A stretch of DNA of 36,157 nt, taken from assembly GCA_017469425.1 (NCBI GenBank), contig JAFUGJ010000009.1, positions 1 through 36,157 on the forward strand, in the 5' to 3' direction. The translations under genes and the position numbers were made by a program. Below the pieces are notes generated by a model, which saw only the letters and a list, made by a program, of their open reading frames with translations, was not told where the DNA came from and searched no databases. This DNA comes from Bacteroidales bacterium. GTDB lineage: Bacteria; Bacteroidota; Bacteroidia; Bacteroidales; UBA932. Positions 5,031 through 35,816 of this stretch are shown here, in pieces. The first letter of the stretch is position 1. Every line of letters starts with the position of its first letter.

Positions 5031-5612
5031 TTAGTTGGTCAGGTATTTGTCTTTATGCTTGCCCACCAGGCCGAGCGAAGCGTAGTGCTTCTGCACGGTT
5101 TCCAGGTCGGCCTTGATGTCGCCGCTGAGTTCGAGCTTCTGCCCGCAGCTCACGCGCTTGGTGCCCCAGTCGAAATATCCCGCATACACGGGCACTCCGG
5201 TTTCGGCTGCAATCTTGAGGGCCCCTGCCTTCCAACGGCGCACGGGTTTGCGCGTGCCTTCGGGGGCGATGGCGAGCTTGAATACATCATCCTGCTCCAT
5301 CTGCTCAATGAGGCTGCGAAGGAGCGTAGAAGCATTGCTGCGGTCGACGGGTATGCATCCGCAGGCCCGGAGAATGGGCCCGAGGGGCCAGAAGAAAAGC
5401 TCTTTCTTTATCATCACATGGGCCACATCCCCGAAGCTGGTGTAAAATAGATAGGAAATTACGAAATCCCAGAAACTGGTGTGCGGAGCACCCAGGACTA
5501 TGGCTTTTTTCTCGGGGATTGCTCCACCCACGGGAGTCCATCCGAGCCTGCGCAGACACCAGCCGCAGAAATTCGCCCAGGTTTTGCTGTATGAAGTCTT
5601 GTTCTTTGCCAT
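5031..5612 (-). CDS. 1-acyl-glycerol-3-phosphate acyltransferase-like (PlsC superfamily) protein
   Basis: This 193-residue protein is of the lysophosphatidic-acid acyltransferase superfamily. It has the catalytic HX4D motif as APHTSFWDF and the acyl-acceptor motif APEGTRKPV, in the expected order and spacing. It is shorter than full PlsC (about 240) and lacks an obvious N-terminal membrane anchor, like the compact Bacteroidales forms. The start ATG (5612-5610) overlaps the parE stop by one base (TGATG), so it is translationally coupled to parE. A longer open frame extends upstream but only reads through parE in another phase, so I rejected it. It is followed at 9 nt by an acyl-CoA synthetase gene, which suggests the pair makes an acyl donor and transfers it to a lipid. 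The exact acceptor is unknown. Confidence 0.85.
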   Translation of the reverse strand: MAKNKTSYSKTWANFCGWCLRRLGWTPVGGAIPEKKAIVLGAPHTSFWDFVISYLFYTSFGDVAHVMIKKELFFWPLGPILRACGCIPVDRSNASTLLRSLIEQMEQDDVFKLAIAPEGTRKPVRRWKAGALKIAAETGVPVYAGYFDWGTKRVSCGQKLELSGDIKADLETVQKHYASLGLVGKHKDKYLTN

Positions 5613-7515
5613 CAGTTGAAGTCTATGTCTTCGAGTTCCTTTTCGCTCTTGAGGTTGCCGCGCAGCCAGTTCTGGCGCTCTATGGTGTTGTCTCCCATGT
5701 AGAATTCCATGATTTCGGCAATGGATTCCTCTTCCGCAAGGCTGACTTCGTCGAGGCGCATGCCTTCTCCGATGAAGTCGGCGAACTCGTCGGACGAAAT
5801 CTCTCCGAGACCTTTGAACCGGGTGATTTCCACCTTGTTTTTGAGGGCGGCGATTGCTTCTTCCTTCTCTTCGATGGAGTAGCAGTAGCGGTTCTCCTGC
5901 TTGTTGCGCACGCGGAATAGGGGAGTCTGCAGGATGTGCACATGCCCGCGGCGGATGAGGTCGGGGTAGTATTTCATGAAGAAGGTGCACACCAGCATGC
6001 GGATGTGCATGCCGTCGTTATCGGCATCGGTTGCCACGATGATGTTGTTGTAGCGGAGGTTTCGATGTCGTCCTCCACTCCGAGGGCGGAGATGAGCAGG
6101 TTGAGCTCTTCGTTTTCCGCAATCTTCTTGCGGCTTTCCTTGTAGGAATTGATGGGTTTTCCCCGCAGGCTGAACACTGCCTGATAGTTTGCGTTGCGGG
6201 CCTTGGTGATGGTTCCGCTTGCGGAGTCGCCCTCGGTGATGAAGATGCTTGAGCGCTCTATGTTCTCGGCGTTCTTCTCGTTGATTTTGTCGTTGAAATG
6301 GAAACGGCAGTCGCGCAGCTTGCGGTTGTACACATTCGCCTTCTTGTTGCGCTCGCGGGTCTTTTTCTGTATGCCGGAAATCTCCTCGCGCTCTTTCTGC
6401 GACGACTTGATTTTCTCTTCGATTATCGGCACCAGGTCCTTGTGGATGCGCAGGTAATTGTCCAGCTGCTTGCCCACGAAGTCGTTCACATAGCTGCGTA
6501 TGGTGGGGCCCACATCGAGCTTGAGCGTGCCGTGCTCGTCGTGGGTCTGCTTTTCCCACATGTAGTTGGAACCGAGCTTGGTCTTGGTCTGGCCTTCGAA
6601 GTTCGGTTCCTGAATCTGGATGCTGATGGCCCCGACGATTCCCTGGCGGCAGTCTTCGGGAGCATAGTTTTTCTTGAAGAACTCCTTGAAGGTCTTGGCG
6701 ATGGCTTCGCGGTATGCTGCGAGATGCGTGCCTCCGTCGCGGGTGTTCTGCCCGTTCACGAAGGAGGATATGTTTTCGCCATAGGCGTTGCCGTGGCTCA
6801 GCACAATCTCTATGTCCTCGCCCTCCAGGTGGATGGGGGGATAGAGCGGAGCTTCTGACATGTTCTCGTTCACGAGGTCCAGAAGGCCGTTTTCGCTCTT
6901 GTAGGGGGTGCCGTTGAAGTTGAGCGTAAGACCCTTTTTGAGGTAGGAATAGTTCTTCATCATGGTTTCGACGAAGTCGAAGTTGTATTCGAACTTGCCG
7001 AACATCATGGGGTCGGGGAAGAAGCTTACCAGAGTGCCGCTCTTTTCCTTGGAAGGTCCTTTCCCGCTGTCTTTCAGCTCTCCGCGCTCGAATGTGGCCC
7101 AGGAGCACTCTCCGTCACGGTAGGAACATACATGGAAGCTCTCCGAAAGGGCGTTCACAGCCTTGGTTCCCACGCCGTTGAGGCCGACGCTCTTCTTGAA
7201 TACCTTGTCGTCGAACTTGCCGCCGGTGTTCAGGATGCTCACGGCCTTCACGACGGAGTCCAGAGGGATGCCGCGGCCGAAGTCGCGCACTGTAACCTTG
7301 TTTTCCTTTATCTCTACATTAACCTGCTTGCCGAAGCCCATCGCAAACTCGTCCACCGAGTTGTCGATGATTTCCTTGAGCAGTACATAGATGCCGTCGC
7401 CGGGGTTGTTGCCGTTGCCAAGGCGCCCGATATACATGCCGGGGCGCAGGCGGACATGCTGCACGCCTTCAAGGGTACGGATGTTATCGTCTGTATAGTT
7501 CAAATTCTCAGGCAT
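5612..7515 (-). CDS. parE: DNA topoisomerase IV subunit B (ParE), with an apparent single-base frameshift
   Basis: This is the ATPase/TOPRIM subunit of topoisomerase IV, which decatenates chromosomes. In the first phase (7515 to about 6058) the GHKL motifs are clear: [15 protein letters not shown] and [14 protein letters not shown], then the transducer, then [15 protein letters not shown] and [11 protein letters not shown]. After ALGVEDDIE, near 6058-6062, the phase is lost. The continuation ([19 protein letters not shown] and the C-terminus ending EDIDFN) lies in another phase down to the stop at 5614-5612. Adding one A to the AAA run in the sequence gaaacctccgc restores a 634-residue protein, the normal ParE length. 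The gene is essential and otherwise intact, so a sequencing or assembly error is the likely cause. ParE rather than GyrB is chosen on the Bacteroidales-type N-terminus and the short C-terminus. Confidence 0.85.
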
Positions 7516-8122: not shown

Positions 8123-8494
8123 TCATTCTGGAAGTTCCAGATGAATATCGTTTCCGGAGGCCCATACAAGGGCCTCCTTTCCGTTTCCAAGAGTCAGCCT
8201 TGCAGGTTTGAGCCCCTGCGGATGAATTGCCAGGGGGTCCGGATGAAAAGCATCGTAAGCCACTTTGTACCAGTGGCTTATTTGTTTTGCATAACCCAGG
8301 AACTGTTCTCCTTCCGGGGTAAGCCCGGCTTCGGTGCGGGAGCGCTGCAGCAACTGCACTCCGAGCTGTTTCTCGAGTTCCGCGATATTCTGGCTTACTG
8401 CGGGCTGGGTGATGCCCAGTTTTCTCGCAGCGGCGGAGAAGTTGCCTTCTTCCACCACCGTTAGGAATATCCTGAGCCTGCTGTCTTCGAACAT
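8123..8494 (-). CDS. LysR-type DNA-binding protein lacking the effector domain
   Basis: This is a 123-residue protein. Residues 1-70 are a complete LysR-type winged helix-turn-helix: LRIFLTVVEEGNFSAAARKL, then the recognition helix region ITQPAVSQNIAELEKQLG, then LLQRSR..GLTPEGE. Residues 71-85 look like the start of the linker helix. The remaining 38 residues are not the periplasmic-binding-type effector domain that normally makes LysR regulators about 300 residues long. The frame is clean, starts with MFEDSRLRIFL and sits 2 nt downstream of the first PNP gene, at the end of the salvage operon. It may be a genuine mini-regulator sensing nothing directly, or a truncated remnant. I infer local control of purine salvage, without direct evidence. 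Confidence 0.75.
   Translation of the reverse strand: MFEDSRLRIFLTVVEEGNFSAAARKLGITQPAVSQNIAELEKQLGVQLLQRSRTEAGLTPEGEQFLGYAKQISHWYKVAYDAFHPDPLAIHPQGLKPARLTLGNGKEALVWASGNDIHLELPE
8156..8177 (+). terminator. Possible terminator hairpin downstream of the ferredoxin gene
   Basis: There is a perfect 8-bp GC-rich stem, ggaggccc (8156-8163) with gggcctcc (8170-8177), a 6-nt loop, then ttt. It begins 36 nt after the ferredoxin stop and lies inside the 3' end of the convergent LysR-type gene. The T-run is short, so termination strength is doubtful. Confidence 0.4.
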
Positions 8495-8496
8495 CG

Positions 8497-9330
8497 TCAG
8501 AGACTTTTTATAAGTTCGCTGAAAAGCCCCGTCATCTTCCTGGACGCGAGGTCGGCCTGGCGCACGATTTCGTTTTCGTCGGTAACATAGTCGTCGCCGG
8601 CTTCATGAGCAACATCGGTGATGACCGACATCCCGAGTACGCGAATGCCTGCATGCCTTGCCACGATCACCTCCGGGGTTACGCTCATGCCCACATCGTC
8701 ACCGCCTATGGCGCGGTAGAATGCGTATTCGGCAGGGGTTTCGTAGGTGGGGCCGGTGCATGAGACATATACGCCACGCTGTAGTTTCACGCCCTGGCGC
8801 CCGGCAATGTCGAGCATGCGCTTCTGCAGCTGCAGGTCATATGCGCAGGTCATGTCAGGAAAGCGCGGGCCGAATTCGTCGAGGTTGGGTCCGATGAGCG
8901 GGTTGGGAAGGAGGTTGATATGGTCGCGGATGAGCATCAGGTCGCCGATTGCAAAGCTTTTGTTCATCGCACCTGCGGCGTTGGAAACGAAGAGGTACTT
9001 GATTCCGAGCTTTATCATCACCCTGACGGGGAGCACCACCGTGTCCATGGGGTATCCTTCATAATAGTGGTAGCGCCCCTGCATGGCGAGCACGCATTTG
9101 CCTCCGAGTTTGCCGCAGATGAAATTCCCCTTGTGGCCTATCGCAGTCGCGGCGGGGAATCCCGGCACCATCACATAAGGCACCACTATGGGGTTCTCTA
9201 TCTGCTCGGCAAGCTGCCCCAGACCGCTGCCGAGGATTATTCCGGCCAGAGGCTTGCGTCCGTCCAGCCACGATTCGAGAAATGCCGCGGCATCCTCGAT
9301 AATCTGCATTCTTTTATCCTTTCCTGCCAT
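8497..9330 (-). CDS. Purine nucleoside phosphorylase paralogue, Asp at base-recognition position (PNP-1)
   Basis: This 277-residue trimeric-type purine nucleoside phosphorylase cleaves purine nucleosides with phosphate to base and ribose-1-phosphate. Visible are the phosphate loop ILGSGLGQLA (32-41), MQGRYHYYEGY (83-93), the base-binding Glu in GPTYETPAE (193-201), and [13 protein letters not shown] (214-226). The base-contact loop reads MSVITDVA, with Asp239 where human PNP has Asn243 and the neighbouring paralogue has Asn240. In human PNP an Asn-to-Asp change at this site confers activity on 6-aminopurines such as adenosine, and MTA phosphorylases carry Asp here. I therefore infer adenosine, deoxyadenosine or methylthioadenosine as substrate. 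The gene starts 1 nt after the paralogue's stop (TGA g ATG), so it is co-translated. Confidence 0.9.
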   Translation of the reverse strand: MAGKDKRMQIIEDAAAFLESWLDGRKPLAGIILGSGLGQLAEQIENPIVVPYVMVPGFPAATAIGHKGNFICGKLGGKCVLAMQGRYHYYEGYPMDTVVLPVRVMIKLGIKYLFVSNAAGAMNKSFAIGDLMLIRDHINLLPNPLIGPNLDEFGPRFPDMTCAYDLQLQKRMLDIAGRQGVKLQRGVYVSCTGPTYETPAEYAFYRAIGGDDVGMSVTPEVIVARHAGIRVLGMSVITDVAHEAGDDYVTDENEIVRQADLASRKMTGLFSELIKSL

Positions 9331-9331
9331 C

Positions 9332-10171
9332 TCAGAGCAATTCTACCATCTTTTCGAAGAGGACGCTCATCCACTGTGCCGCTTTGTTGGCCTGCATCAC
9401 CACATCTTCCCCGTCATTGAAATTGCGTTCCACATTCTCGGTGTTGGCAACATTGGTCACCACCGACATTCCGAACACCCTGATGCCGCTGTGCCGCGCC
9501 ACTATGACTTCCGGCACGGTGGACATGCCGATGAGGTCGCCGCCTATGGCTCGGAAATAGCGCACTTCCGCAGGGGTTTCATAGGTGGGGCCGGTTCCGG
9601 CGATGTAGATGCCCCTTTTGAGGCTGTGCCCGAGGCTCTGCGCAATCGCGTCCGCCCTGTCCTGAAGCTCAAGGTCGTAGGGGCAGGTCATGTCCGGGAA
9701 GCGGGGGCCGAAGTCGTCCATGTTGGCACCGATAAGGGGATTGGGCATAAGGTTGATATGGTCGCGGATGACTACGGTGTCGCCCACGGCATAGCCGGGA
9801 TTGAGCCCTCCCGCGGCGTTCGATACGAACAGGTATTCGATGCCGAGCTTCTTCATCACCCTTACAGGCATCGTAACCGCTTCCATGGCGTAGCCTTCGT
9901 AGTAATGGAAGCGGCCCTGCATTGCAAGAACGCATTTGCCGCCGAGCTGACCTGTTATCAGGTTCCCCTTGTGTCCGATTACGGTCGATACGGGGAAGCC
10001 GGGAATCTCCGTATAAGGGATTACTGTTGCATCGGTTATCTTCTCTGCAAGGTTTCCGAGCCCGCTGCCGCAGATGATGCCGGCAATGGGTTTGCGGCCT
10101 TCCAGGCGTGAGCTGATGTACTCGGCTGCCTGGTTGATTCTTTCGATTCTTGAGTCCATTTTCCGTTTCAT
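9332..10171 (-). CDS. punA: Purine nucleoside phosphorylase, canonical 6-oxopurine type (PNP-2)
   Basis: This 279-residue trimeric PNP should act on inosine and guanosine. Motifs are [10 protein letters not shown] (33-42), [11 protein letters not shown] (85-95), GPTYETPAE (194-202), [15 protein letters not shown] (215-229) and the 6-oxopurine-binding loop MSVVTNVA, with Asn240 in the position of human Asn243. It is closely similar to the adjacent downstream copy along its whole length, so the two arose by tandem duplication. I place the start at 10171 ([11 protein letters not shown]), where ATGA overlaps the stop of the upstream deaminase gene. A longer frame upstream only reads through that gene out of phase. 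An alternative start at 10159 (MDSRIER) would remove the overlap. Confidence 0.92.
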
Positions 10172-11445
10172 TTGATTTTGCTTATCACCTTCCGGGCTTC
10201 GTGCAGGATTTCGCGCTCTCCGGGAATCTCCCTTCCGCGCATGACTACCTTGCCTCCGGCGATTACGGTTTCGATGCAGTCGGAATGGGCCGAGTACACG
10301 AGGTTGGCAAGGAAGGGGCCGGGGGAAAGGAAGTAGCTGCTGTCGGTTTCCACGATGGAGATGTCCGCCAGGGCGCCTTCGCGCAGCACTCCGCTGTCGA
10401 GCTGCAGGGCCTTGGCGCCGTTGATGGTGGCCATGTCGAGCAGTTCGTCGAGCGGGAGCGCCTTGGGGTCGTTCCGCCAGGCTTTCTGGAAGAGGGCCGA
10501 GGTTTTCATGGCCTCGAGGATGTCGAGGTTGTTGGACGAGGCGCATCCGTCGGTGCCTATGCACACATTCACGCCTGCATCGCGCAGTTCGTTGTACAGA
10601 AACCTGTAGCCCGAAGACAGTTTGGTGTTGGAATTGATGTTATGTATGCAGTGGACGCCGTGCCTGGCGAGCAGTTCGATGTCGTGTTCGCTCAGCCAGA
10701 GGCAGTGTGCCGCCAGAAGGTTGGGGCCGAGCACGCCTATGGCGTCCAGGTATTCTACGGGAGTGAGCCCGCCGTGGGCTGCCTTGCAGTCTTCCACTTC
10801 CTTGCGGGTTTCGCTGAGGTGGATATGAAGGGGAATGCCATGGCTGCGGGCGAATTCCGCGGCCCATGTCATCATGGGTTCGCTCACTGAATAGATGGCG
10901 TGGAATGCGAGTTCGTAGATGGAGCCTTCCTTCTTCCAGAGGTCTTCCACCTCTTCATATTTGCGCTGGCACTGCTCCATCTGGCGTTTTGCCTCTTCCG
11001 GGTCGCCATGGTCGATGATGTCGTAGCCTACCGCGGGGCGTATTCCCATTTCGGCGGCGGCTTTCTGGCAGGCTTGGAAGAACCAGTACTGGTCGTTGAA
11101 TGTGGTGGTGCCGGAGCGTATCATTTCGATGCAGGCGACCTTGGCGCTCCAGTAGACGAAGTCGTAGTCGAAATTGTCCTCAATCGCCCAAATCTTCCGT
11201 ATCCAGTCCTGGAATACCATGTCCTCGCCTATGCCCCTCATCAGGGCCATCCCTGCGTGGGTGTGCATGTTGATGAATCCCGGAATCGCCACCTTGCCGC
11301 TGCAGTGCATCACTTCAAGCTCTCCTGCGAGGTCCCAGTCGACGCAGGAACCCGACGGCTCTATGCGGAGGATACGGCTGCCGCCGATGAGCACATCTTT
11401 GCGCTCATCGGCGATGGTTATGTCTTTCAGGAGAATGGAGACCAT
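10168..11445 (-). CDS. Amidohydrolase, 5-methylthioadenosine/S-adenosylhomocysteine deaminase-like (MtaD/TrzA family)
   Basis: This 425-residue metal-dependent hydrolase is of the TrzA/AtzA/MtaD family, which deaminates MTA, SAH or adenosine at the 6-amino group. Metal and catalytic positions are visible in order: [13 protein letters not shown] (His61, His63), PLHIHLSET (His207/His209), [11 protein letters not shown] (His247) and [11 protein letters not shown] (Asp299). The segment [12 protein letters not shown] (268-279) corresponds to the family's H-N-P-x-S-N-x-K-L-x-S-G loop, with Ile for Pro. It starts overlapping the stop of the PUR-domain gene by one base (TGATG) and ends in an ATGA overlap with the PNP-2 gene. 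Deamination of an adenine nucleoside to its inosine form followed by PNP-2 cleavage would make a coherent salvage path. Guanine or cytosine deaminase-like activity is less likely. Confidence 0.85.
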
Positions 11446-13136: not shown

Positions 13137-14069
13137 GTGAAGCGCTGGCAATCCTTCATCGTATGCCTTGTCGTTTCGGCGGGCATCTGGCTCATCCATA
13201 ATCTGTCGCACATGCAGACGGATGTGGTGTCCGTGTCGGTAATTGCCGAGAGCAACATCGAAGGGAGGTCGCCCCGCTCCAGCGACATAGTCGTGCTTTC
13301 CGCCCGCTGCAAGGCGTCGGGTTTCCGGTTGCTGTACCTGGGCTGGAAGGAAGCTCCTGTGGTGGTGCGGCTCGAGCCCGAGGATTTCCAACAGGGGGAG
13401 GGGGATTATTTCTCCATCTCCGCACCTCAGCTCTACCGCTATGTGCCCGAAATTTTCGGCGCCGGGGTGAGCGTGGAGTCCTTTCTGTTCGAGAACATAC
13501 AGTTCCGCTTTATCCGCGAGCTCAACCGCAAGGTGCCGGTGGTGCCTGTTAGCGTGCTGGGTTTCCGCCCGCAGTATATGCAGATGGGAGACCTGAAAGT
13601 GGTGCCGGATTCGGTGCTGGTGTATGGCCCTGCCGACATGCTCGGAGGCATCAATGCGGTCTATACGAAGGCCATAGTCAAAAGCGACATACGGGGCAAT
13701 CTCCATGGCGAAGTGAATCTTGAGCAGCCGGAGGGAATGCGCCTTTCGGCATCCAGCGTGAGCTGGGAAGTGGCAGTCAGCCGCTATGTCGAAATAAAGG
13801 CATCCCTTCCCGTTAATCTCAGGGGCGCTCCCGCAGGTGTGGACCTGTCCATCTTCCCGTCTACAGTTTCGGCCACCTTCAAGTGTGTCTTCCCTCTCAT
13901 CGCCGACCCGGTGGAGCAGGCCGAGTGCTATATCGACTATGACGATTTCGCGGGCTCCGTCACCGGGCGTTGCGTGGTCGGATGCGACCGTCTGCCCCAG
14001 GGGGTAATCAGCGTAAAGCTCAGCCCCGAGGTGGCGGAATGTGTTGAAAATATAGGCTCCGGGCTATGA
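13137..14069 (+). CDS. YbbR-like domain membrane-anchored protein
   Basis: This 310-residue protein starts with GTG (13137) directly after gag. It has an N-terminal membrane anchor (FIVCLVVSAGIWLIHNL) and an exported region with YbbR-like beta repeats, including the recognisable RELNRKVPVVPVSVLGF, VVPDSVLVYGPADML and LRLSASSVSWEVAV-type segments (here MRLSASSVSWEVAV). YbbR (CdaR in Firmicutes) controls the diadenylate cyclase there; in Bacteroidota the role is not known and no cdaA is adjacent here. It is 12 nt after yajC and overlaps coaE by 4 nt (ATGA), the usual Bacteroidales order. The domain call is by pattern, moderately sure. Confidence 0.78.
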   Translation: MKRWQSFIVCLVVSAGIWLIHNLSHMQTDVVSVSVIAESNIEGRSPRSSDIVVLSARCKASGFRLLYLGWKEAPVVVRLEPEDFQQGEGDYFSISAPQLYRYVPEIFGAGVSVESFLFENIQFRFIRELNRKVPVVPVSVLGFRPQYMQMGDLKVVPDSVLVYGPADMLGGINAVYTKAIVKSDIRGNLHGEVNLEQPEGMRLSASSVSWEVAVSRYVEIKASLPVNLRGAPAGVDLSIFPSTVSATFKCVFPLIADPVEQAECYIDYDDFAGSVTGRCVVGCDRLPQGVISVKLSPEVAECVENIGSGL

Positions 14070-15013
14070 AAACGATTCTGGTCACGGGCGGAATAGCCAG
14101 CGGAAAATCGGAAGTGTGCCGTTATCTCTCATCCAAGGGGATGCCGGTTTATGACAGCGATTCCCGCACCAAGGCGCTTTACGGCTCAGTGCCTGGGCTG
14201 CGGCAGAAAGTGGAGGAAGCCATCGGAGTGCCTTTTTCCCGCATAGGCATAATCTTCGAAGATGCCGCCAGGCGCGAAGCCCTGGAGGCCGTGGTTTATC
14301 CCGAGGTGCTGAAGGATTTCCTCTCCTGGCGCTCTTCCACCGGTGCCGGAACGGTTTTTTTTGAATCCGCCATAGCGCTTTCAAAACCAATCTTCGACGG
14401 ACTTTGGGATGAAGTGTGGCTGGTGACGGCTCCCTTGGAACAGCGCCTTGCGCGGAGTGCCAAGGTGGCGGAACGCCTTGCTTCACAGCCTGATACGGAC
14501 ATCGCGCTTGCCGATGTGCTCATCAGCAACGATTCCGACATTGAATCATTACATTTGAAAATCGATAAATTACTAAATGATATGAAAACAGATCTCAGCA
14601 AAATCCTTTCCGTTTCCGGAAAGCACGGGCTCTATAGGTTCCTTGCCCTCTCACGCAACAATTCGGCCATTGCCGAGGCCCTGAGCGACGGACACCGCAC
14701 CGTATTCGACCCTCACAGCCGCATTACCACCCTGGCCGACATCGCCATCTTTACCGACGAAGGCGAATTCAAGCTAAAGGATGTTTTTCTTGCTATCGAA
14801 AAGGCTCTCGAAGGGGCGGAAGCTCCCACTTCGAAGTCGGCCGATGCCGATATAAAGGCCCTCTTTGCAAAGGCGGTTCCCAACTACGATGCCGAGCGCT
14901 TCTATGTTTCGCACATGAAGAAAATCCTCGACTGGTACGGCGAACTGGTGAAATACGCTTCGCTCGACTTCGTGGAAGAGGAAGAAGAAGCAGCTGAAGG
15001 GGAGAATGCATAG
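14066..15013 (+). CDS. coaE: Dephospho-CoA kinase fused in frame to a DUF5606 domain
   Basis: This is one 315-residue frame with two parts. Residues 1-172 are dephospho-CoA kinase, which makes CoA from dephospho-CoA and ATP: P-loop TGGIASGKS (7-15), the VYDSDS acidic motif (28-33), ARREALEAVVYPEVL, and the lid-like region LEQRLARSAKVAERLASQ. Residues 173-315, beginning MKTDLSKILSVSGKHGLYRFL, form a DUF5606 domain of unknown function that I know as a separate small protein in other Bacteroidales. The joining Met173 (ATG at 14582) may still serve as an internal start, giving a free DUF5606 protein. The CoaE part is a little shorter than usual (about 195-205). The start overlaps the ybbR-like stop (ATGA); the end overlaps rimO by 8 nt. 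Confidence 0.85.
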   Translation: MKTILVTGGIASGKSEVCRYLSSKGMPVYDSDSRTKALYGSVPGLRQKVEEAIGVPFSRIGIIFEDAARREALEAVVYPEVLKDFLSWRSSTGAGTVFFESAIALSKPIFDGLWDEVWLVTAPLEQRLARSAKVAERLASQPDTDIALADVLISNDSDIESLHLKIDKLLNDMKTDLSKILSVSGKHGLYRFLALSRNNSAIAEALSDGHRTVFDPHSRITTLADIAIFTDEGEFKLKDVFLAIEKALEGAEAPTSKSADADIKALFAKAVPNYDAERFYVSHMKKILDWYGELVKYASLDFVEEEEEAAEGENA

Positions 15014-30227: not shown

Positions 30228-33200
30228 TCAAATTATATCCCTGAATCTTTCAAAGAATGCTTTAAGGCGGAACAGGACTGTTTCTTTCTTGGTGGTCCTG
30301 TCCTTGCTGAATCTGGACATCGGAGGTAGGATGGATGCCACCTCGGTACCGTTTTCGCGGATGGCCCCGTCACGGAAAGAAGCCTCTACGAAACGGCGCG
30401 TTTCTTCGGGCTTGAGCTTTTCTTCGTTGATGATGTCCTCCAGTTCCTGCTCTTTCCGGCGTTCTATATACTCCCGCCAGACGACATCCAGGTCGGTGAT
30501 TTCCGGTGTAAGGGAGTCGATGAAGTTCTCGATGAGGTCTTTCTTGTTGCGAAGTTCAATACTGGAGTCGATAGCTTTGGTGATAGACAGGCGGATTTCC
30601 GCATTTCCCGTGTGCTCACTCTGGTATTTCGTTACCAGCAGCATGATGTAGTCGATGTTGACTTCTACCTGCTTTACGAGCTCGATTTCAAATACGAGGT
30701 CTTCGGTGATGTCCTCCTTGTCGTGCTTCTCGCGGTTACGGAACTTGTTGTACACATCGATGTACATACTCTGGTAGTCCTGCATATCCCGGTCGCTAAT
30801 CAACACTTTGTCCTTGAATTCATCAAAGCATTGAAGGAGATTGATGGCTTTTAAAAGATTGCCAAAGAGCTTTGCAAACTGTTTCTGTTTTTCTTCCGGC
30901 ATGATAGGCTGGCCAATCGGAAACTCCCGGAGGAGTTCTTCTACAAGTTCGGTATAGCCAAGATGGTGCTTATCGTTCTCATCGTCGAAACCGTTGTAAT
31001 AGTCCTCGAAATTCCTGAGCACCACGATGCCTCCGGCTTTTTCATCACCAAAAAGGGCAAGGCTTGCATTGGTATTCTCCTCCAGATTTCGGAAGCAGAC
31101 AATGTTGCCGAAGGTTTTGACGGAGTTGAGTTTGCGGTTGGTGCGGGAGAATGCCTGCAGAAGTCCGTGCATCCTCAGATTCTTGTCCACCCAGAGGGTA
31201 TTGAGCGTTTTGGCATCGAATCCGGTGAGGAACATGTTCACCACAATGAGCAAATCCAGTTCCCGGTTTTTCATCTTCTCCGAAACATCTTTGTAGTACT
31301 TCTGGAAACCATCGCCTGATGTGTCGTAGCTGGTATGGAACATCTCATTGTAGTTCTTGATGGCCCTTTCCAGACAATCACGGGAAGTTGCATCCAGCCC
31401 GGTGGTATCGTCCGAGTTCTCTTCGCTCATAAAGCCTTCCTGCTCCAGTTCCGCTTCATTCTGGCCGTAGCTGTAGATGAGGGCTATCTTGAGTTTCTTA
31501 TCCTCCGGAAGCGCCTCCATCTGCCTGATGAACTCATTGTAGTAAAGGATGGCGGCAGGGATGCCGGAGGTGGCCAGGATGGAATTGAAGGATTTACGCT
31601 TGGTCTTCTGGTCGAAGTGCTCAAGGATGTAGCGGGTGACATTCGTGATGTTCTCCGGTGACATGAAAGCCTTGTCGGTATCGATGCCCCAGACCTGGTC
31701 TTCCCGGACACCGTTCTTTTCCTTCATCGTCTTGATGTAGTCGATACGGAAGGGCAGGACATTCTGGTCGTTGATGGCGTTGACGATGGTATAGCTGTGG
31801 AGCCTGTCGCCAAAAGCCTGTTCCGTGGTCTTGAGATTGGGCAGGCCGTTACCGCCGGAATTCTGCGGGAAAATGGGCGTTCCGGTGAATCCGAACATGT
31901 GGTAGCGCCTGAATGCCTTGGTAATGGCCGCGTGCATCTCGTTGAACTGGGAGCGGTGGCATTCATCGAAAATCAGGACTACATGGGCCTCATAGACCGG
32001 GTGCTTCTTATTCCCGGCAATAAAGCGGCTTAGCTTCTGGATGGTCGTAATAATGATACGGCAATTCGGGTCTTCCAGCTGGCGTTGAAGTATGGCGGTG
32101 TTGGCATTGGAGTTGGCTGCGCCCTTTTCGAAGCGGTCATACTCCTTCATGGTCTGGTAGTCCAGGTCTTTGCGGTCCACCACAAAGAGCACCTTATCTA
32201 TCTCCGGCATCTTGGAAGCAATCTGAGCCGTTTTGAAGGAAGTAAGCGTTTTGCCGCTTCCGGTGGTGTGCCAGATGTAGCCTCCTGCCGCGAGGGTGCC
32301 GAGTTTCTTCTTGTCGTAGGTGGCAATCAGGATGCGCTGCAGGATTTTCTCGGTGGCTGCAATCTGGTAGGGCCGCATTACCAACAGCTCCTTCTCGGCA
32401 GTGAACACACAGAATCGCGTGAGGACATTCAAGAGGGAGTGCTTGGCGAAGAATGTGGCCGTGAAGTCCACGAGGTCGTATATAGGATTGTTCTTTTCGT
32501 CGGCCCAGAAAGAAGTGAATTCAAAGCTGCCGGAAGTCTTCTTCAAACTCTTTGCCCGGAGTTCCTGATTCTTTTTTACATGGGCATTTCGGGTGGTATT
32601 GGAATAATACTTGGTAAAAGTGCCATTGCTGATGACGAAGAGCTGAACATACTCGAAAAGGCCGGAGCCGGCCCAGAAAGAATCCCGCTGATAGCGGTTA
32701 ATTTGGTTGAATGCCTCTTTGATGTCCACACCCCTGCGTTTAAGCTCTACATGCACAAGTGGCAGGCCGTTTACAAGAATGGTGACATCGTAGCGGTTGG
32801 GCCTGGCGCCATCGTCCACCACATACTGGTTGATGACCTGCAGGGAGTTGCGGTGGATGTCGTCTTTGTCGATGAGCTTGATGTTACGGAAGATGGAAGA
32901 ACCCTCGCTTTTGGTAATGGTGGCGACCTTCACATAGTCGTCCTGGATGGTATTGGTCTTCTCTACGATGCCGTCGTTGCGGTTGGCAAGGTGGATTCTG
33001 AAAAACGCATCCCAGTCTTCATCGGAAAAATGATGATTGTTGAGCTTTTCCAGCTGGTGGCGAAGATTGGCAATGAGGGCGGCCTCGTCCTTGATTTGGA
33101 TATACTCGTAGCCCTGCTCCCGGAGCTGCATGATAAAGGCATCCTCCAGCATGGCCTCGCTCTGGTAGTTGCGTTCCCTCTTCCGGTCGGAGACGAATTC

Positions 33201-33254
33201 GGCCACCAGGGTACTTTCAGGGTTCCGGGATATTATGTTCAAGCGGGAAGACAT
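30228..33254 (-). CDS. hsdR: Type I restriction endonuclease subunit R (HsdR)
   Basis: This 1008-residue motor/nuclease subunit of a type I restriction-modification complex translocates DNA and cuts it when the HsdM/HsdS target is unmethylated. The PD-(D/E)xK nuclease is visible as Asp156 ... Glu170-Leu-Lys172 (NRYDVTILVNGLPLVHVELK). The SF2 helicase motor has Walker A TTGSGKT (330-336), FDECHRS (429-435, motif II), GFTGTP (motif III) and the motif V/VI region FLTGFDAKTLNTLWVD ... QAFSRTNR. I use ATG 33254 (MSSRLNIISRN), 4 nt after the ATPase stop, rather than a TTG at 33287 that would overlap the ATPase gene. Nothing is truncated. It is the last gene of the hsd locus. Confidence 0.96.
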   Translation of the reverse strand: MSSRLNIISRNPESTLVAEFVSDRKRERNYQSEAMLEDAFIMQLREQGYEYIQIKDEAALIANLRHQLEKLNNHHFSDEDWDAFFRIHLANRNDGIVEKTNTIQDDYVKVATITKSEGSSIFRNIKLIDKDDIHRNSLQVINQYVVDDGARPNRYDVTILVNGLPLVHVELKRRGVDIKEAFNQINRYQRDSFWAGSGLFEYVQLFVISNGTFTKYYSNTTRNAHVKKNQELRAKSLKKTSGSFEFTSFWADEKNNPIYDLVDFTATFFAKHSLLNVLTRFCVFTAEKELLVMRPYQIAATEKILQRILIATYDKKKLGTLAAGGYIWHTTGSGKTLTSFKTAQIASKMPEIDKVLFVVDRKDLDYQTMKEYDRFEKGAANSNANTAILQRQLEDPNCRIIITTIQKLSRFIAGNKKHPVYEAHVVLIFDECHRSQFNEMHAAITKAFRRYHMFGFTGTPIFPQNSGGNGLPNLKTTEQAFGDRLHSYTIVNAINDQNVLPFRIDYIKTMKEKNGVREDQVWGIDTDKAFMSPENITNVTRYILEHFDQKTKRKSFNSILATSGIPAAILYYNEFIRQMEALPEDKKLKIALIYSYGQNEAELEQEGFMSEENSDDTTGLDATSRDCLERAIKNYNEMFHTSYDTSGDGFQKYYKDVSEKMKNRELDLLIVVNMFLTGFDAKTLNTLWVDKNLRMHGLLQAFSRTNRKLNSVKTFGNIVCFRNLEENTNASLALFGDEKAGGIVVLRNFEDYYNGFDDENDKHHLGYTELVEELLREFPIGQPIMPEEKQKQFAKLFGNLLKAINLLQCFDEFKDKVLISDRDMQDYQSMYIDVYNKFRNREKHDKEDITEDLVFEIELVKQVEVNIDYIMLLVTKYQSEHTGNAEIRLSITKAIDSSIELRNKKDLIENFIDSLTPEITDLDVVWREYIERRKEQELEDIINEEKLKPEETRRFVEASFRDGAIRENGTEVASILPPMSRFSKDRTTKKETVLFRLKAFFERFRDII

Positions 33255-33258
33255 GGCG

Positions 33259-34413
33259 TTACAGTTCAAGGTGTTTGTAATTGACAATCTCTATATCCCC
33301 GGCGGAATTCTCAAAATCTCCCGCATATACCACGGCTCTCCGACATACAGGAGTTTTAATCCACCCGGGAAGTTTATTAAGGGCATCTGCAAAAGAAGTG
33401 GAATAGGTTTGAGACGACTTCACTTCCAAAGCCGTAATTTCTCCCTCTTCTTTAAGAATCAGGTCCACTTCATTCTTGTTGGAGTCACGATAAAAGAAAA
33501 CGCCACCGTCCTTGCCAGAGTTTACCCTATGCTTGACTGCTTCCATCACCACAAAGTTTTCAAAGATATTGCCACGCATCTTGTCTCTTGCAAGCTGACG
33601 GGGGCTTTCTATGTCCAGCAGGTAGCAGGCAAGTCCGGGGTCGCAGAAATATAATTTAGGCGACTTGATGAGGCGTTTGGAGATATTCTCATAATAGGGA
33701 GGGAGCAGGTAAATGATATAGGAAGACTGCAAAACCGACAGCCACGACGCAATTGTCTTGCTGTCAACCCCCACTTCACCCGAAAGTTCCGATGCATTGA
33801 AAATCGATCCGATGCGGGCGGCGCAAAGCTTCATGAAGCGGAGGAACTGCATCATGTCTTTGATATTCAGCAGGTCACGGACATCTTTCTCCAGATAGGT
33901 TTTTACATACGACGGGTAATACAGCGTCGAGATATTTTTCCCTGAACACACCGCAGGGTAGAACCCGTCGAACAGTATGGTGTCCAGATCCTTTTGCGAA
34001 AATATTCCGGAAGTCTCGGCAAATGACATCGGAAGGAGTTCAAATACTCCGCTCCTCCCGGCAAGAGACTCCGATACGCCTTTCATCACTTCAAACTGCG
34101 AGCTTCCTGAAAGAAGGAATTTTCTTTCAGGGTGATTGTCCACGATACCTTGAATATACTCGATCAGTCCTGGAGCCTTCTGGATTTCATCAATGAACAG
34201 GGGCTTGTCGCTTTGGCCCAGAAAGGCAACCGGGTCATTCAGGGCAAAGTCCCTGACTTGAATATCTTTAAGGGAATAAGCTTCTGCCTCAGGGAACAAA
34301 TGTCGCAGCAGAGTGGTTTTACCTGACTGACGCGGGCCGGTTAGAGTTATCACCGGGAAATACTGCCACGCAAATTGCAGTGTTTTTTCTATTTCTCGTT
34401 CAATGTAAACCAT
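33259..34413 (-). CDS. AAA_14 / DUF4143 family ATPase
   Basis: This 384-residue P-loop ATPase of the AAA_14 + DUF4143 family is very common in Bacteroidota and poorly understood. Walker A is GPRQSGKTT (26-34), Walker B LFIDEIQ (72-78), and a sensor-like LLSGSSQF follows. The C-terminal half is DUF4143, ending in a PD-(D/E)xK-like pattern (NEVDLILKEEGEITALEVKSS), which suggests a nuclease-related fold. It is inserted between hsdS and hsdR; type I operons usually contain only R, M and S, sometimes with toxin-antitoxin or Fic genes. A 43-bp palindrome touches its start codon and a second copy lies 138 nt further upstream. It may be autonomous cargo rather than part of the restriction complex. 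Its AT-rich upstream region also suggests transfer. Confidence 0.9.
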   Translation of the reverse strand: MVYIEREIEKTLQFAWQYFPVITLTGPRQSGKTTLLRHLFPEAEAYSLKDIQVRDFALNDPVAFLGQSDKPLFIDEIQKAPGLIEYIQGIVDNHPERKFLLSGSSQFEVMKGVSESLAGRSGVFELLPMSFAETSGIFSQKDLDTILFDGFYPAVCSGKNISTLYYPSYVKTYLEKDVRDLLNIKDMMQFLRFMKLCAARIGSIFNASELSGEVGVDSKTIASWLSVLQSSYIIYLLPPYYENISKRLIKSPKLYFCDPGLACYLLDIESPRQLARDKMRGNIFENFVVMEAVKHRVNSGKDGGVFFYRDSNKNEVDLILKEEGEITALEVKSSQTYSTSFADALNKLPGWIKTPVCRRAVVYAGDFENSAGDIEIVNYKHLEL

Positions 34414-34456
34414 ATTTTATGCATTTTCGGAGTCGCACTCCAAAAATACATAAAAT
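34414..34456. repeat. 43-bp imperfect palindrome abutting the ATPase start codon (copy 1)
   Basis: attttatgcattttcggagt (34414-34433) pairs with actccaaaaatacataaaat (34437-34456) at 18 of 20 positions, with a cgc spacer. It is directly next to the ATG at 34413-34411, so in RNA it would occupy the ribosome-binding region; in DNA it could be an operator. Confidence 0.8.
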
Positions 34457-34498
34457 AATTGAGATTGCAAAAGCAGCGTATACTTGTACGAAAAGGAT

Positions 34499-34541
34499 TT
34501 CAATACAACATTGAGGCTGAAATTCAAAATGTTGTTTTGAA
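34499..34541. repeat. Inverted repeat between the two palindromes
   Basis: ttcaatacaacatt (34499-34512) matches the reverse complement of aatgttgttttgaa (34528-34541) at 13 of 14 positions, spacer 15 nt. A flanking gcaaaag (34467-34473) and cttttgc (34542-34548) could extend it. It belongs to the structured 190-nt gap between hsdS and the ATPase gene. Confidence 0.55.
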
Positions 34542-34551
34542 CTTTTGCCTT

Positions 34552-34594
34552 ATTTTATGCAATTTAGGAATTGCACTCCGAAAATACATAAAAT
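34552..34594. repeat. 43-bp imperfect palindrome, copy 2, just downstream of hsdS
   Basis: attttatgcaatttaggaat (34552-34571) pairs with actccgaaaatacataaaat (34575-34594) at 16 of 20 positions, spacer tgc. It is a direct repeat of copy 1 with a few substitutions, 138 nt away, and ends 10 nt before the hsdS stop codon, so it may also end the hsdS transcript. Confidence 0.8.
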
Positions 34595-34604
34595 AATCTC
34601 GGAC

Positions 34605-35816
34605 TTAGCAGGCTTTGCGGGGGAAGGACAGTAGAGAGTCGCGGTAGTATTCGTATTGCTGCTGCCGGGCTTTGATTTCGGCAGGAAGGCCGGAGGTGAG
34701 GTCAGTAGTTAATGCGGAAAATTTATCAAGAATGGCAACAATTTGAGATTGGCGCTCAATGGAAGGAACTGCAATTACCGTGTTTTTCAGATTGTCATTG
34801 TATAGTCTCTTAATTGTACCACCTTCCACTTTCCAATCAATGATTTGATATAAGTAACGAAGATATGTATTAAGAACAGACCGTTCGTCATTGTCAACCC
34901 ACACAATATTGGAATCTTGGTAATAAGCATCGGATCCATCATAAACCACTGCACGGCCAATAGTTCCTGCTGCCGAAATTAATATGTCTCCCACTTTTGG
35001 GAAAGGATACTGTTGTTTGTATTGTTCGTAAAGAGTCCTGCTGATAAAGGCATCCGGAGTCTTGCCAAAGGTCCCTATTTTATAAAATGGAACACCGTCA
35101 GTAGTGTTGGTCTGATTCTTCATGACGCGCTTACACATTTTTACCTCACCGATATCTCCTATTGTTATGTATTTTGCTTCATAGGGGGGGGTAAAGTGGT
35201 TGAAATTCAATAAGTTGTCTCTATAATACTCATATTGTTTCTGTCTTGCTGTGAGCTCCGCTGTGAGCTCCGCTGTAAGCTCCGAAAAATTGTCGAGTAC
35301 CTCGACAATTTTTCTCTGAGCTTCCAGAGGTGGAACAGGAATTTCTATCTTGGCCAAATCATCAACCTTGATGTCAATTACCTTTGCGCCCCGAGCATAT
35401 TTCTTCTTCTGCTGGAAAAAGAAATCGGACTGGAAGAAATATGAAACATATTTGGGGTTAAGAGAATGCCTGAAAACAGCAGAGTGACCACCTGTTACTA
35501 TCTGCTCTTCTCCTAACCAGGCAACCGCTTTGCAAACATCTTCAATGTTCTCGCTCGTACAAGCTATTACCAGATTCCCCTTTTCTATTTTTAGCAACTT
35601 GTCGGCCAATTCGCTGGAAACCTTTGATTTTGTTGTATATGCAAATACCCCGTAGTATGTGTAAATCTGACCATAATGAATACACCCCACTCCCTCTTCG
35701 ACAAAATCCTTCTTCTGGAGTCCATTCCCACGGACAAATGTTCCCACTTCCCCCAACTTCTTATACTCCACCCCATCCGGGCAGAGCCTCGCTATCATAT
35801 CTTGTAATTCACTCAT
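34605..35816 (-). CDS. hsdS: Type I restriction-modification specificity subunit S (HsdS)
   Basis: This 403-residue DNA-recognition subunit pairs with HsdM and HsdR. Two target recognition domains are visible: TRD1 about 15-160 and TRD2 about 215-350. Each is followed by a conserved helical region: PVPPLEAQRKIVEVLDNFSEL plus RQKQYEYYRDNLL (about 160-203), and VPSIERQSQIVAILDKFSAL plus RQQQYEYYRDSLLSF near the C-terminus. The central helix contains ELTA three times (179-190), the TAEL-type repeat whose copy number sets the spacer between the two half-sites in EcoR124-type enzymes. The DNA is AT-rich compared with the rest of the window, as usual for hsdS. It lies 100 nt after hsdM and 191 nt before the ATPase gene. 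Confidence 0.95.
   Translation of the reverse strand: MSELQDMIARLCPDGVEYKKLGEVGTFVRGNGLQKKDFVEEGVGCIHYGQIYTYYGVFAYTTKSKVSSELADKLLKIEKGNLVIACTSENIEDVCKAVAWLGEEQIVTGGHSAVFRHSLNPKYVSYFFQSDFFFQQKKKYARGAKVIDIKVDDLAKIEIPVPPLEAQRKIVEVLDNFSELTAELTAELTARQKQYEYYRDNLLNFNHFTPPYEAKYITIGDIGEVKMCKRVMKNQTNTTDGVPFYKIGTFGKTPDAFISRTLYEQYKQQYPFPKVGDILISAAGTIGRAVVYDGSDAYYQDSNIVWVDNDERSVLNTYLRYLYQIIDWKVEGGTIKRLYNDNLKNTVIAVPSIERQSQIVAILDKFSALTTDLTSGLPAEIKARQQQYEYYRDSLLSFPRKAC
35248..35283 (-). repeat. Three tandem 12-bp units in hsdS (TAEL-type spacer repeat)
   Basis: The unit gctgtgagctcc occurs at 35248-35259 and 35260-35271, and as gctgtaagctcc at 35272-35283. Each encodes four residues of the central helix (ELTA). 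Unequal exchange or slippage would keep the frame and change the distance between target recognition domains. Confidence 0.92.
35284..35314. repeat. Perfect 14-bp palindrome with 3-nt loop inside hsdS
   Basis: gaaaaattgtcgag (35284-35297) and ctcgacaatttttc (35301-35314) are fully complementary around tac. It immediately adjoins the 12-bp repeats and encodes the conserved KIVEVLDNFS helix. The second copy of that helix (QIVAILDKFS) has no such palindrome. Confidence 0.8.

Follow-up and report, generated by a model that had tools for sequence, protein, structure and literature searches.

Tandem trimeric purine nucleoside phosphorylases of Bacteroidales differ at the base-recognition residue, and residue type appears to track deaminase genes

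Members of a gut and rumen group of Bacteroidales often carry two neighboring copies of a purine nucleoside phosphorylase (PNP) that differ at the residue that reads the base. One such pair, PNP-2 with Asn and PNP-1 with Asp, lies at positions 8497-10171 on the minus strand of the window, i.e., the whole 36,157-nucleotide stretch of DNA analyzed here, where it is preceded by a gene encoding an amidohydrolase-family deaminase (Table 1). The three genes, for which we infer both the substrates and a shared transcript, probably comprise a purine-nucleoside salvage unit offering two parallel routes.

Table 1. Genes and marked codons of the predicted three-gene unit in the window
Feature	Position	Strand	Basis
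Amidohydrolase-family nucleoside deaminase	10168..11445	-	First gene of three-gene unit; PF01979, 235.5 bits
PNP-2, Asn-type trimer-family purine nucleoside phosphorylase, 279 aa	9332..10171	-	TIGR01700, 351.2 bits (cut-off 293.35)
PNP-1, Asp-type trimer-family purine nucleoside phosphorylase, 277 aa	8497..9330	-	TIGR01700, 334.4 bits (cut-off 293.35)
Asn240 codon AAT, PNP-2 (human Asn243 equivalent)	9452..9454	-	Sequence and alignment
Asp239 codon GAT, PNP-1 (base-recognition position)	8614..8616	-	Sequence; Asn/Asp in 70/70 distinct pairs
Thr250 codon ACC, PNP-1 (lid segment)	8581..8583	-	Thr in 70/70 Asp copies, Asn in 70/70 Asn copies
Ile255 codon ATC, PNP-1	8566..8568	-	Ile in 70/70 Asp copies, Val in 70/70 Asn copies

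As described in the initial annotation, the two PNPs are adjacent and can be aligned. Both are of the trimer type, and they share 61.3% identity over 274 residues. The base-recognition loop reads SVITDVA in PNP-1, with Asp239, and SVVTNVA in PNP-2, where Asn240 occupies the position of human Asn243, and the nearby motif reads GMSVTPEV and GMSTVPEV, respectively, both differences noted earlier being confirmed in the sequence and the alignment. The stop codon of the deaminase gene and the start codon of the PNP-2 gene share four bases (ATGA, 10171-10168), and a single base separates the PNP-2 and PNP-1 genes. Two bases past PNP-1, at 8123-8494 of the minus strand, lies an ORF for a 123-residue protein corresponding to the HTH alone of a LysR regulator; its candidacy as a conserved regulator beside PNP-1 was rejected, since among the loci fetched the ORF was matched (E ≤ 1e-8) only by loci of its own genome. 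Elsewhere in the window, a gyrase B/topoisomerase IV B-like gene (5612-7515, minus strand) is apparently split over two frames (ORFs 5974-7515 and 5612-7108), in what appears to be a frameshift or assembly error, a single ORF (14066-15013, plus strand) combines a dephospho-CoA kinase domain with DUF5606 and DUF6852, and genes for the R and specificity subunits of a type I restriction enzyme (30228-35816, minus strand) are found with an AAA_14/DUF4143 ORF in between.

Both PNPs exceed the cut-off of TIGR01700, the model for inosine and guanosine-specific PNPs, and both present the fold of solved trimeric PNPs. As the same cut-off was passed by all eight other Asp-type proteins scanned (8/8), as well as by both Asn-type ones, this model does not test the base residue. 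PNP-1 matched 11 NCBIfam models, none of which was a DeoD model. The solved protein nearest in sequence to the window deaminase is the MTA/SAH deaminase 4f0r (E 2.6e-59). The deaminase satisfies the broad PF01979 model but fails the MTA/SAH deaminase model NF012037 (212 bits; cut-off 779), and lies under the curated cut-off in every NCBIfam match listed (25 of the 45 matches).

The Asn/Asp pairing is conserved. Among the best 80 of 148 relatives recovered in a scan of contigs, with titles nearly all naming Bacteroidales or Bacteroidia and some naming Candidatus Cryptobacteroides, 22 loci (L006-L027) present the pair in the order Asn copy, Asp copy. In 21 of these 22, the deaminase gene comes before the pair, the remaining locus (L011) starting within the first PNP. 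A search of the window's genus revealed a PNP match in 256 of 300 genomes and at least two matches in 103 (counted by hand). Altogether, 90 entries were assembled, namely, 89 tandem loci (the window's own locus included) and the window itself, and 70 distinct pairs remained after identical pairs were removed. In every one of these 70, the window included, one copy carries Asn and the other Asp. The Asn copy lies upstream and the Asp copy downstream in 88 of the 89 tandem loci, with the order being reversed in L159, and no locus holding two copies of the same type was found among the scan, family and genus loci. Lone copies in these same collections were of the Asp type in 17 loci and of the Asn type in 92. 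The loci counted, tandem ones included, overlap in part, as one genome could be reached by two routes, and some are too short to show a neighbor.

Three alignment columns separate the two copies in all 70 pairs, namely, 239 (Asn/Asp) and, in the lid and pocket, 250 (Asn/Thr) and 255 (Val/Ile), and at columns 191, 218, 244 and 254 the copies differ in 91-100% of pairs. The change from GMSTVPEV to GMSVTPEV, corresponding to column 218 and its neighbor, is not universal among the pairs. Divergence between the copies peaks at residues 228-257. Column 255 of PNP-1 aligns with Val284 of the K. lactis enzyme, which the available part of PMC5074518 places among the residues surrounding the base and ribose. 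Of the 86 unique Asp rows in the scan, family and genus loci, unpaired copies included, 84 carry Ile in column 255 and two carry Val; as Ile255 is also present in 25 of 134 Asp rows outside the scan, family and genus loci, it is not peculiar to the window's group. The catalytic residues are intact, and Ser35, Arg86, His88, Tyr90, Glu197 and Met215 do not vary in any of these 86 rows.

When the Asp copy was compared with ten relatives, dN/dS values of 0.05-0.07 were obtained in seven cases and of 0.12 in one, with two not being computable due to saturated silent sites. PNP-1 is thus under purifying selection, and these values, together with the conservation of the pair in 70/70 cases, rule out a chance or decaying duplicate. 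No case could be made for gene conversion between the copies, since, in sliding windows, identity within a locus exceeded identity between loci by no more than 0.03.

The tandem arrangement is also seen in another family of the class, where locus L227 (582-2262, plus strand) presents an Asn copy (582-1424) upstream of an Asp copy (1414-2262). As the Asn row of L227 is sister to its own Asp neighbor in the tree, the tandem arrangement arose at least twice. A deaminase gene is found upstream in 75 of the 92 single-Asn loci and in none of the 17 single-Asp loci, and this synteny suggests the Asn copy to be the ancestral locus. In three AU tests, a topology with the Asp rows as one clade yielded p-AU values of 0.945, 0.547 and 0.497, and one with the Asn rows as a single clade and the Asp copies outside yielded values of 0.873, 0.44 and 0.299; neither topology was thus rejected, and the trees neither bore out nor contradicted an ancestral Asn copy that changed to Asp after duplication. 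Trait columns were removed in the second and third tests, these two tests and one further tree excluded L031_4826, an Asp row on a long branch, and the Asn rows of L238 and L286 were included in the first test and in neither the second test nor the further tree.

According to the available part of PMC5074518, trimeric PNPs are usually stated to carry Asn and to act on 6-oxopurines and hexameric ones to carry Asp, with few exceptions. The initial annotation had regarded Asp239 as a natural version of the engineered switch, and the rarity of Asp that this implies is contradicted by the distribution of the residue. In a phylum-wide sample comprising only the best match per genome, L227 excepted, Asp was found in 29 of 30 PNP rows, the sole exception being the Asn row of L227. 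A first order/family set of 61 rows from 60 genomes contained 36 Asp, 23 Asn and two Ser rows, with the first 40 order loci coming from near the top of the PNP-1 similarity ranking and so leaning towards PNP-1 kin, and with 15 of the 20 regions of one further batch coming from the window's own family. A held-out set of 75 genomes of the order contained 64 Asp and 11 Asn, a count that excludes five second copies, all Asp. The Ser-type PNPs are those of L277 and L288, and each of the two genomes has a deaminase match.

Asp also occurs naturally, as in PNP-1, in three solved PNPs, namely, those of Bacteroides fragilis (8swt), Spirosoma linguale (4lna) and Planctomyces limnophilus (4m1e), at 50, 46 and 44% identity, respectively, although their lid sequence differs from that of PNP-1. 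The Porphyromonas gingivalis PNP (4ns1/4nsn), unlike PNP-1, has Asn at the base position. Hexameric DeoD/adenosine phosphorylases, which form a different subfamily from PNP-1, present Asp at the position equivalent to Asp239 and use 6-aminopurines, according to the available part of PMC5074518. Titles and abstract openings in the literature searched, which mostly did not extend to subscription papers, yielded nothing on natural Asp in trimeric PNPs or on a deaminase link; kinetics of the B. fragilis enzyme may have been published in such papers.

The type of residue was next compared with the presence of a deaminase, scored as a PF00962 match over the cut-off or a homolog of the window deaminase at E ≤ 1e-30, with homologs at 31-42% identity possibly having other substrates. 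In the first set of 60 genomes of known PNP residue, searched for both families, a deaminase was found in 22 of 23 Asn-type genomes (19 with the amidohydrolase and three with PF00962 only), the exception, G588, presenting neither. One genome scored as Asn-type with PF00962, G637, has a second, unlinked Asp copy; without it, the count is 21 of 22. By contrast, a deaminase was found in only 1 of 35 Asp-type genomes (G580, an amidohydrolase, 41% identical), with PF00962 over the cut-off in none of the 35, and in both Ser-type genomes (2/2). In the 75 held-out genomes, searched for the window deaminase family alone, a homolog was found in 8 of 11 Asn-type genomes and 1 of 64 Asp-type genomes (G592, E 3e-31), the three Asn-type genomes giving no amidohydrolase match in that search being G574, G587 and G650. 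Plain Fisher tests yielded values of 9e-14 for the first set and 8e-8 for the held-out set, for genomes that are not independent. A deaminase gene lies directly upstream on the same strand in 7 of the 23 Asn rows and none of the 36 Asp rows of the order/family set. What looks like a new comparative rule, namely, that genomes with Asn-type PNPs carry an adenosine-type deaminase and those with Asp-type PNPs mostly do not, would follow from these gene counts. Given that the control genome, Bacteroides ihuae, presents a PF00962 match and that the solved B. fragilis PNP carries Asp, the genus Bacteroides may break this rule.

Within the window's genus, 80 of the 114 listed genomes, all at least 90% complete, were sampled, 40 with at least two PNP matches and 40 with one. 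The operon deaminase had no match (E ≤ 1e-60) in 13 of the 80, 10 of these having at least two PNPs (Fisher p 0.07). Three further genomes (G226, G233 and G300) present only a 39-41% homolog, of the type occurring as a second gene in other genomes, and when these are counted as lacking the operon deaminase, the figures become 16 of 80, 11 vs 5, and p 0.16. Leaving aside G233, G308 and G351, in which PF00962 matched weakly, the six strong PF00962 matches in the 80 genomes all fall within the 13 without the operon deaminase (Fisher 6e-6, or 3e-5 if the three genomes with 39-41% homologs are also counted as lacking it), as if the two deaminases could replace each other. Of the three single-PNP genomes among the 13 (G165, G355 and G370), G165 carries an Asp copy (L198), in line with the rule, whereas G370, in which PF00962 found no match, carries an Asn copy (L200), against the rule.

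In the source genome, no PF00962 match and no AdoHcyase match were found, nor did any of its PF01048 proteins exceed the DeoD cut-off. These proteins include an MTA/SAH-nucleosidase-like gene product encoded elsewhere in the genome, above the cut-off of TIGR01704 (133.8 bits; cut-off 73.8) and below that of NF004079 (162.5 vs 169), as well as uridine-phosphorylase-like and fused nucleosidase-like proteins, both below cut-off. Since the assembly is 94% complete with 6.3% contamination, gene absences are not certain.

The Asp-type B. fragilis PNP was, according to its structure title, solved with Immucillin-H, a 6-oxopurine analog. The effect of replacing Asn by Asp is documented for two enzymes of the same family: K. 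lactis PNP N256D prefers adenosine to inosine (available part of PMC5074518), and human PNP N243D shows a 5,000-fold higher kcat for adenosine (as quoted in the available part of PMC6128611). These present the same residue difference as PNP-1, although they are engineered single changes and the natural pairs differ also at columns 250 and 255. As the mutants gain the use of adenosine, it is likely that PNP-2 needs the deaminase for adenosine and that PNP-1 does not. The base residue is not the sole determinant, since S. mansoni PNP2 uses adenosine despite its Asn (available part of PMC6128611) and the A. migulanus trimeric PNP, whatever its base residue, shows weak adenosine activity (available part of PMC6983109). 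Given these two cases and that of B. fragilis, PNP-1 is expected to be broad rather than adenosine-only, with Asp239 likely conferring both adenosine and 6-oxopurine activity. In the first of the two proposed routes, the deaminase would convert adenosine-type nucleosides to inosine-type ones, which PNP-2, expected to be restricted to 6-oxopurines by Asn240, would then phosphorolyze. In the second, PNP-1 would act on adenosine or deoxyadenosine directly, and probably on inosine as well, freeing adenine.

The unit also resembles a known pathway of Pseudomonas, in which an MTA deaminase feeds a methylthioinosine (MTI) phosphorylase. Salvage of MTA/SAH, or of 5'-deoxyadenosine, could proceed similarly, with the deaminase yielding methylthioinosine or S-inosylhomocysteine for cleavage by a PNP and the Asp copy acting on MTA. 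Such a scheme, consistent with 4f0r being the nearest solved deaminase and with the absence of an AdoHcyase match, is nonetheless quite improbable. The MTA phosphorylase model TIGR01694 (cut-off 274.85) gives PNP-1 and PNP-2 only 70.8 and 70.6 bits, and the MTI phosphorylase model NF006599 (cut-off 223) only 40 and 51.7 bits, such that either identity was rejected for both proteins. In MTA phosphorylases, Ser characteristically replaces the pocket Glu (human Ser178), and this Ser is absent in all 86 unique Asp rows, where Glu197 is retained. PNP-1 further presents a polar residue, Glu252, at what we take to be the position of human PNP His257, in contact with the 5' group. Also arguing against the scheme are the MTA/SAH-nucleosidase-like gene elsewhere in the genome and the six genomes of the genus in which an adenosine-deaminase-family (PF00962) gene is found without the operon deaminase. 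The specificity split put forward in the initial annotation accordingly holds up only in part: its adenosine side gains from the conserved pairs, from Asp at the human Asn243 equivalent and from the mutants, whereas the option of PNP-1 acting on MTA is unlikely.

It is also unlikely, if slightly less so, that both copies are ordinary 6-oxopurine PNPs, with Asp being neutral for the 6-position and the Asp copy being set apart by its pH optimum, by its regulation or by which of inosine, guanosine and deoxynucleosides it prefers. Both copies scoring above the NCBIfam equivalog cut-off, the binding of Immucillin-H by the Asp-type B. fragilis enzyme and the commonness of Asp in the phylum would all agree with this, yet the split is kept in every distinct pair, two trimeric PNPs acquire activity on adenosine when Asn is mutated to Asp, as far as the available parts of the sources go, and deaminase genes track the residue. 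Could this tracking be a clade effect, devoid of any functional link? Independent switches behind the rule are few, with a quick order/phylum tree containing five state changes (Asn, Asp and Ser together) and just two independent pairs (sign test p 0.5). Against this stand the two unrelated deaminase families that occupy the role and the held-out genomes that obey the rule, and a pure clade effect, although the alternative deserving the most weight, is considered doubtful. The association of residue and deaminase suggests, but falls short of proving, two natural routes of adenosine recycling.

It is, in our estimate, an even call whether the base residue of Bacteroidales trimeric PNPs acts as a switch, with Asp allowing direct phosphorolysis and Asn calling for prior deamination, with retention or loss of the deaminase following, and with the window's genus and, independently, the family of L227 dividing the two states between tandem copies. 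The window's genus can hold both solutions for adenosine in one operon. The name "inosine/guanosine-specific" attached to TIGR01700 is blind to the base residue, and, were the switch real, many Bacteroidota PNPs so named would be adenosine-capable. If Asp in nature entails the use of adenosine as it does in the mutants, a central step of purine salvage in gut and rumen bacteria would be wrongly annotated, and nature would provide, in the tandem pairs, a side-by-side comparison of the two specificities within one cell.
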